64,000 nucleotides of DNA, from positions 186,001-250,000 of the forward strand of contig NZ_CANMFF010000003.1 of the NCBI RefSeq assembly GCF_947497005.1, given 5' to 3'. The stretch comes from an uncultured Ruegeria sp. (GTDB lineage Bacteria > Pseudomonadota > Alphaproteobacteria > Rhodobacterales > Rhodobacteraceae). The notes beneath the pieces were generated by a model, which saw only the letters and a list, made by a program, of their open reading frames with translations, made no database searches and was not told the DNA's origin. Of this stretch, positions 56,396-58,153 are shown piece by piece (positions within the stretch are counted from its first letter, which is position 1; each line of letters starts with the position of its first letter). The translations under genes and the position numbers were made by a program.

Positions 56396-57454
56396 TCAGA
56401 ACGAACGGCTGCCCTGAGGCATACTTAAGCCCGAAGTCACGTTAATCAGTTCCATCTCACCCATCCCCTTGATTTCGACCTGCCCAAGGTCGGATACTTG
56501 GAACTCGTCGATCAGGGCGTACTTCATCTCTTCCGGGGCGACGATGTTCATCGGATTGGCGAACACCTGCAACCGGGACGCGATGTTTACGGCTGGGCCA
56601 AAGACGTCATAGACATATTTTTGAATTCCTACGACCGATCCGACGGCAGCGCCCATCCCCAGACCAATCCGGGCCTGCCATTTGTGTGGATGACTTTCGT
56701 TACGGCGTTCAAGATACCGCAGGAACCGTACCGCACAATGTGCCACAGCGGTCGCATGATCCGGTGTGGGGTCAGGCATACCTGACACGGCTAAATACGC
56801 GTCGCCAATCGTCTTGATCCGCTCACACCCGAATTGTTCAACAATGCGGTCGAAGGCCGTGAAGATGTCATTCAGCTCACTCAAGGTCACCGTCGGGTCG
56901 GTTTTAGCAGCAAAATCCGTGAATCCGACAAAATCCAGCATCACCACCGAGACCTGCTTATACAATTGCGGAGTGACAACGCCAAAAGTCTTGAATTCTT
57001 CATACACGGCCCGTGGCATCAGGTTCAGCAACAGGCGTTCGACCCTCTCCTTTTCGCGCTCAAGCTCTCGGGTGTTGCGTTCGACCATGGTGGAATAGCT
57101 GTCGATCATGCTTTCCAACTCGCGAATGCGGGTAATATTCTGACATTCGATGATCAGCACCTGCTCGGACAACCCACTAGCCAACGAGACCGTGACCGCA
57201 AATATCAATGTCCGGCGTTTGGGCTTGATTTGCAATTCAACCGAGTACCTCAGGCCAGACTGTTTCACATCTTCCAGCTCTTTTGGATCCAGATCAGGCA
57301 AAATGTCCCTAAGGGTATTTTCTGCGTTGGGGGTTCCGAACCATTCCGTGAAGGGCCCGTTGTGGAACACGAACTGCAAATCGGATGCGCGCACCACCGC
57401 GACTCCTACACCGATTGCGCGTAGCAGTTGTTCGTTAATTGCAAGAATGCTCAT
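56396..57454 (-). CDS. PAS-coiled-coil class III adenylate cyclase
   Basis: A soluble cyclase of 352 residues: PAS-like domain (1-110), a signalling coiled coil (112-142) with LLLNLMPRAV, then the catalytic domain (165-340). Metal ligands are Asp174 (VVMLDFVGFT) and Asp218 (TIGDAY). Substrate-selecting residues are Lys214 and Asp283, the adenylate-cyclase pair rather than the Glu/Cys of guanylate cyclases. Asn290 and Arg294 (NIASR) complete the site. It begins 4 bases inside the globin stop, so expression is coupled and the globin may act on it. It probably makes cAMP. Confidence 0.9.
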   Translation of the reverse strand: MSILAINEQLLRAIGVGVAVVRASDLQFVFHNGPFTEWFGTPNAENTLRDILPDLDPKELEDVKQSGLRYSVELQIKPKRRTLIFAVTVSLASGLSEQVLIIECQNITRIRELESMIDSYSTMVERNTRELEREKERVERLLLNLMPRAVYEEFKTFGVVTPQLYKQVSVVMLDFVGFTDFAAKTDPTVTLSELNDIFTAFDRIVEQFGCERIKTIGDAYLAVSGMPDPTPDHATAVAHCAVRFLRYLERRNESHPHKWQARIGLGMGAAVGSVVGIQKYVYDVFGPAVNIASRLQVFANPMNIVAPEEMKYALIDEFQVSDLGQVEIKGMGEMELINVTSGLSMPQGSRSF

Positions 57455-57819
57455 GCCGCGTTCCGGGCGACAATGATCGAACGTTTTCCTTCAATTGCGG
57501 CCAGTGCAGTTTTGATGTCACCATCCGACATTCCATGCTGGCTCAGTGCGTCGCCAAACAGTTCGGCCATAACGTCAAACTCATCATGCGAAATGTTCAG
57601 ATGCCGATGAACAGCTTCGATCCTGTCATCACTGAAAGATGCGGGTCCGCCAATCAGGGACGATACGAATTTAGTCTGATGATCAATCAAACGCGGCATA
57701 TCGATATCTTCAAAGTGATGGCCGATATCATCCGAATCCAGCGCCATTTCATAGAAGGTCATTACGACACGGCTGATTGTTTTGAAGCCGCCGTACTTCT
57801 CATAGAGTGTCTGTGCCAA
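57451..57819 (-). CDS. Group I truncated haemoglobin (TrHbN-like)
   Basis: A 122-residue 2-on-2 haemoglobin. The N-terminus LYEKYGGF and GGP (residues 57-59) match group I. Predicted haem contacts are Tyr23 (B10) and Gln48 (E11), the pair that stabilises bound O2 and supports NO dioxygenation in Mycobacterium HbN, and the proximal His71 (F8) in VHRHLNI. It starts at TTG with a weak ribosome site; no ATG is available after the upstream stop. The stop overlaps the cyclase gene. The 244-base gap before it shows only AT-rich sequence. Confidence 0.9.
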   Translation of the reverse strand: MAQTLYEKYGGFKTISRVVMTFYEMALDSDDIGHHFEDIDMPRLIDHQTKFVSSLIGGPASFSDDRIEAVHRHLNISHDEFDVMAELFGDALSQHGMSDGDIKTALAAIEGKRSIIVARNAA

Positions 57820-58063: not shown

Positions 58064-58153
58064 TGGCGGAGAGACAGGGATTCGAACCCTGGAGACGGTC
58101 TCCCGCCTACACACTTTCCAGGCGTGCGCCTTCGACCACTCGGCCACCTCTCC
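58064..58153 (-). tRNA. tRNA-Ser(GGA)
   Basis: A 90-nt type II cloverleaf with a long variable arm (GGCGGGAGACCGTC), acceptor GGAGAGG paired with CTCTCC, discriminator G and encoded CCA. The anticodon loop CTGGAAA gives GGA. The 131 bases upstream hold no obvious consensus promoter. Confidence 0.96.

Follow-up and report, generated by a model that had tools for sequence, protein, structure and literature searches.

The window, by which we mean the whole stretch of 64,000 nucleotides analysed, carries on its reverse strand a gene for a group I truncated haemoglobin followed directly by a gene for a PAS-linked class III nucleotide cyclase. Their features are as follows.

57451..57819, reverse strand: group I truncated haemoglobin, 122 residues, TTG start (open reading frame, Pfam, alignments)
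57751..57753, reverse strand: codon of Tyr23 (B10), from alignment with group I globins
57679..57681, reverse strand: codon of His47 (E10), which aligns with cyanoglobin 1s69 and is predicted to be the distal, sixth ligand of the haem
57676..57678, reverse strand: codon of Gln48 (E11), from alignment with group I globins
57607..57609, reverse strand: codon of His71 (F8), proximal haem ligand (alignments)
57451..57454, reverse strand: ATGA overlap of the globin TGA stop and the cyclase ATG start, four shared bases
56396..57454, reverse strand: PAS, signalling-helix, class III nucleotide cyclase, 352 residues, ATG start (open reading frame, Pfam, AlphaFold2 model)
57137..57454, reverse strand: PAS-like domain (residues 1-106) in which no His is fully conserved (AlphaFold2 strand order, sub-threshold PAS_8)
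57020..57136, reverse strand: signalling helix, residues 107-145, strongly conserved (alignment, AlphaFold2; matches the last part of Pfam HNOBA)
56447..56974, reverse strand: class III catalytic domain (residues 161-336), containing Asp174, Lys214, Asp218, Asp283, Asn290 and Arg294 (Pfam, alignments, model)

Pfam recognises both products (Bac_globin, 5.9e-15; Guanylate_cyc, 1.6e-41), in agreement with the sequence-only reading of this DNA, which had named the two proteins and the four bases shared by their stop and start codons. The closest named relative of the cyclase, at 96% identity, is from Ruegeria. Among the nearest 80 of 148 confirmed cyclase relatives, the 4-base overlap is kept in 72; in the others the spacing is +4 (four), +3 (two), -11 (one) or +7 (one), and across all pairs it ranges from -11 to about +41. 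The TTG start of the globin is supported by the same 80 relatives, because each of them has GTG or ATG as the start codon closest to that place in the alignment. On the 5' side of the pair lie a tRNA-Ser gene (58064-58153), a channel of the MscS/MscK family and cysteine synthase; on the 3' side, convergent, lie a TetR regulator and PPK2. A promoter and terminator scan of the locus gave no signal exceeding shuffles, and boxes resembling those of FNR, NnrR, CRP or NsrR occur 5' of the globin in 0-1 of 81 loci.

The pair is strongly conserved. In all of the 80 nearest relatives examined, a globin lies directly upstream of the cyclase on the same strand. We then have 385 genomes of Alphaproteobacteria, with up to 11 globin and up to 5 cyclase candidates scored per genome. 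They hold 18 full-length matches to the cyclase family (E below 1e-95), in 17 genomes under 12 family labels, so the pair is patchy in the class; each of the 18 has a globin match next upstream. The remaining class III cyclase matches of these genomes (E<=1e-30) serve as a control: of 60, only one adjoins a globin match; the 60 score from about 1e-50 to 1e-31 and match over the helix and catalytic part only. The difference gives a Fisher value of 9e-17, for rows that are not independent. A few of the 18 are imperfect: in G027 the globin match is partial and two in-frame stops interrupt the family match of the cyclase, the G208 cyclase has one such stop, the G001 match runs across a stop at its end and that of G165 starts at residue 69.

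Taken from the globin side, 17 of 19 matches at E<=1e-30 in the class genomes are accompanied by a cyclase, the exceptions being G039 and G310. The G039 globin (L114) is a close, unpaired relative with His at E10, and adjoins a Rieske ring-hydroxylating oxygenase. In a draw of 61 relatives, all 44 cyclases have their globin and 44 of 47 globins have their cyclase; within it, the pair is present in all 37 genomes of the carrier's genus. The three remaining globins (L192, L193 and L194) each come from a genome with a full pair elsewhere, and no cyclase profile match was found beside them. By eye, a cyclase-like stretch interrupted by stops lies beside the L192 globin. Conservation across genomes, which the sequence-only reading had set as a test of the pair, is thus borne out.

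Further afield, three of 398 Pseudomonadota genomes match at E<=1e-60, all of them Alphaproteobacteria (up to 5 candidates scored per genome; the share of the 398 from outside the class is not given), and in G620 the globin was confirmed beside the cyclase. A search of 72,556 plasmid records at the same threshold added one match, on a Novosphingobium plasmid. The carrier genome itself has a second, diverged pair (L124, G000:C23), whose globin and cyclase are both nearest to those of G154. Distances among globins and among cyclases correlate (r 0.91 for 95 pairs, 0.80 for 35 diverse pairs), as expected from joint inheritance, to which shared species history contributes.

Around the pair, the genes change. 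In 36 of 96 loci none of the six neighbour genes of the window lies within the fetched flanks, and the pair is still kept: adjacency and the order globin then cyclase persist while neighbours and spacing vary. No obligate third operon gene was seen in the 96 loci; a methyltransferase is found near the pair in 11 and a hydrolase in 10. A UbiE-like methyltransferase precedes the second pair of the carrier. An OsmC protein and FAD oxidoreductases are encoded 5' of the pair in G154, the only such case among the 96 loci, and on Novosphingobium pentaromativorans plasmid pLA3 (L191). The plasmid carries, on one strand, OsmC, two FAD oxidoreductases, the pair, a hybrid histidine kinase and a response regulator; relatives of this kinase occur at 11 of the 96 loci.

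Positions B10, E7, E10, E11 and F8 of the globin were assigned by aligning it with chains of group I globins and cyanoglobin, on which we take Tyr23 to be B10, Leu44 E7, His47 E10, Gln48 E11 and His71 F8. With its Bac_globin profile, His F8, GG motifs and Tyr B10, the protein is a group I truncated haemoglobin. The Tyr-B10, Gln-E11 and proximal His71 pointed out earlier are indeed kept in this alignment. His47, absent from that earlier account, is here proposed as the sixth haem ligand: its counterpart in cyanoglobin 1s69 is the His at chain position 46, presumably the sixth haem ligand of that protein. From this one aligned residue, the globin is predicted to be hexacoordinate, with His47 and His71 as a bis-His pair. 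According to PMC4720485, hexacoordination has been observed in Synechocystis and Synechococcus globins, and a His or Lys at E10 may coordinate. According to PMC7082302, Chlamydomonas THB10 and THB11 have a conserved Lys at E10, yet show no hexacoordination in the ferrous form.

We compared 95 paired globins (80 from genome_contigs and 15 from other genomes) with 23 other group I globin domains. The pairs L168 and L116 were excluded because of stops within their cyclase frames. The 23 domains match the same profile, domain matches below 25 bits having been dropped; some share one protein, two have no His F8, and the third globin of the carrier is outside the set. His at E10 is present in 95/95 paired globins versus 2/23 others, the two being close relatives without a cyclase (L099 and L101). 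The same holds for Asp46 (95/95 versus 1/23), Thr49 (92/95 versus 1/23) and Lys50 (94/95 versus 1/23), and in the N-terminal part for Phe12 (93/95 versus 0/23) and Ser16 (90/95 versus 0/23). Mostly common to the other group I globins are Tyr23 (20/23), Phe36 (23/23), Gln48 (17/23) and His71 (21/23). Clustering at 80% identity reduces the 95 sequences to 40, of which 40 keep the E10 His, 40 Asp46, 38 Thr49 and 39 Lys50. Altogether, the E-helix signature Asp46-His47-Gln48-Thr49-Lys50 is nearly confined to globins paired with a cyclase.

The cyclase has the residues of a class III adenylate cyclase: a metal Asp pair, a Lys/Asp adenine pair, and Asn with Arg. We take Asp174 and Asp218 to be the two metal ligands, Lys214 and Asp283 the adenine pair, and Asn290 and Arg294 the transition-state residues. 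All six are invariant in 23 aligned relatives and present in 95/95 of a larger set, except for Lys214 (93 Lys, 2 Arg), so that the earlier statement that Lys214, Asp283 and the catalytic residues are kept stands. In the AlphaFold2 model, residues 16-106 follow a PAS-like order of strands and helices; the PAS_8 score, 18.8 bits, is under the cut-off of 21.8. The commonest PAS His, His31, occurs in 57 of 95 relatives, and no His column is fully conserved. Assignment of this domain to HNOBA, the PAS of soluble guanylate cyclase, was considered and rejected, because in the proteins inspected only profile positions ~150 to 216 of 216, the helix part, match and a GAF-cyclase matches too. No H-NOX Pfam match was found in globin or cyclase. 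No haem-binding site is recognisable in the enzyme predicted to make cAMP.

Since the two genes adjoin and the enzyme has no recognisable haem site of its own, the haemoglobin is likely to be the cyclase's separate gas sensor. We consider it probable that the globin is a gas-sensing subunit of the predicted adenylate cyclase encoded directly behind it, and a split cAMP sensor for O2 or NO is the best-supported idea. For this pair we infer haem binding, hexacoordination, contact, ligand and sign of effect, and the mechanism would run as follows. In the absence of an external ligand, the haem iron would be held by His47 and His71 together. Binding of O2 (or NO or CO) would displace His47 and so move the E helix. 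In trans, the globin would dock on the PAS domain or the signalling helix of the cyclase, and the helix would relay the change to the cyclase dimer, altering cAMP output. Tyr-B10 and Gln-E11 usually stabilise bound O2, which is why we consider O2 the most likely ligand.

NO is not favoured by the distribution of NirK, which represents one NO source only: the carrier has no NirK match, and pair carriers show no significant enrichment (2/17 versus 21/368 genomes, Fisher p=0.27). The same counts leave without specific support the proposal, made in the sequence-only reading, that the globin shields the cyclase from NO. They also weigh on a broader explanation, that the globin is an NO dioxygenase or a similar redox enzyme, co-expressed to clear NO or reactive species and making no contact with the cyclase. 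Mycobacterium tuberculosis HbN, a group I relative matched by the globin, does have NO dioxygenase activity (PMC3493545), and the FAD oxidoreductases and OsmC 5' of the pair in pLA3 and G154 would suit an enzymatic role. However, neighbours of this type are confined to one of 96 loci and the plasmid, ligands would presumably reach the haem more slowly past a His at E10, and removal of NO leaves unexplained why one cyclase family joins the globin (18/18 versus 1/60). We therefore regard an enzymatic globin as unlikely.

The predicted bis-His ligation could also belong to a haem-redox sensor, in which Fe3+ and Fe2+ would both be bis-His and the globin would report the redox state of the cell to the cyclase. 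The OsmC and FAD oxidoreductase genes beside the pair in two lineages fit this idea, but their rarity elsewhere tells against it, and we find it rather improbable. That shared transcription serves expression only, and that the two proteins act independently, is very improbable: the three of 47 globins without a detectable cyclase alongside would agree with it, whereas the adjacency and order kept amid changing neighbours and spacing, and the pair-specific E-helix residues, do not.

If the globin is a separate gas sensor, the reading that we prefer, its cyclase would still be one cAMP input among many, for the carrier genome has 25 class III cyclase matches. The genome also has 12 cNMP-binding matches (11 over the cut-off), which are possible cAMP targets.

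Elsewhere, the group I globin fold is joined to signalling proteins, since it occurs as a domain inside CheA-type kinases and a chemoreceptor of Alphaproteobacteria. In CheA, P2 usually occupies the place between Hpt and H-kinase_dim. Nine alphaproteobacterial CheA-type kinases have a Bac_globin domain at this place (L103, L105, L110, L111, L117, L118, L121, L122 and L123); several of the frames run off the stretch read, and no HATPase is present there in L105 or L118. The L117 and L122 proteins each carry one more globin close to CheW, and the L123 globin has no His F8. These kinases are possibly a gas-sensing kind of CheA. In L119 (4464-7328, forward strand), a truncated globin is N-terminal in a PAS chemoreceptor (MCP). 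A second kind of pair is found in L157 (2505-4249, reverse strand; G342): here the gene after a diverged group I globin encodes a class III cyclase led by a GAF domain and a helix. PMC7082302 mentions fusions of 2/2 globins with kinase domains or nitrate reductase domains.

Each protein of the pair is of a known family. Their two-gene combination is not described in the literature searched, which covered few papers of subscription journals and included passages of PMC1592074, PMC7082302, PMC3287990, PMC3820574, PMC4720485 and PMC13313319. A conserved pair whose enzymatic output is defined would open the roles of truncated haemoglobins and of hexacoordination to direct experiment on two small proteins, with cAMP production as the readout of what the haemoglobin senses. 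The Ruegeria group would gain a haem-based route into cAMP signalling.

Globin-coupled sensors, which include the globin adenylate cyclases of Leishmania, join a globin and an output domain. The pair resembles them in having a globin as presumed input to a nucleotide cyclase. Theirs is a single polypeptide, whereas here a separate gene encodes a 2/2 group I truncated globin. This difference, already remarked on from the sequence, holds among relatives: the best 120 of 4755 matches to a joined query contain no fused protein, all being of 345-401 residues without a listed globin domain, and a distant fusion may rank lower. Soluble guanylate cyclase (H-NOX, PAS, coiled coil, cyclase) shares the order PAS, helix, cyclase, and its chains align with the cyclase model over about residues 1-344, although the rigid arrangement differs (rmsd 18.6-21.2 Å). 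The pair has no H-NOX domain, which the separate globin would replace, and its residues are of the ATP type. Stand-alone H-NOX proteins have as their partners in trans the kinases or diguanylate cyclases of adjacent genes; they too are separate haem sensors next to a signalling partner, with another haem fold and another output. Cyanobacterial GlbN and Chlamydomonas THB1 are likewise of the group I fold and have at E10 a residue that may ligate the haem; to our knowledge neither is located beside a cyclase.

The pair would thus work like a globin-coupled sensor or a soluble guanylate cyclase, but it lacks the defining feature of each, fusion in the one and H-NOX in the other. It may represent, with about even chances, a new gas-receptor architecture, in which a soluble adenylate cyclase has a detachable bis-His truncated haemoglobin as its regulatory subunit in trans. 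Such a receptor would be the cAMP equivalent, in bacteria, of soluble guanylate cyclase, with a globin in place of H-NOX, and one case among several in which Alphaproteobacteria use truncated globins as signalling inputs, CheA kinases included.
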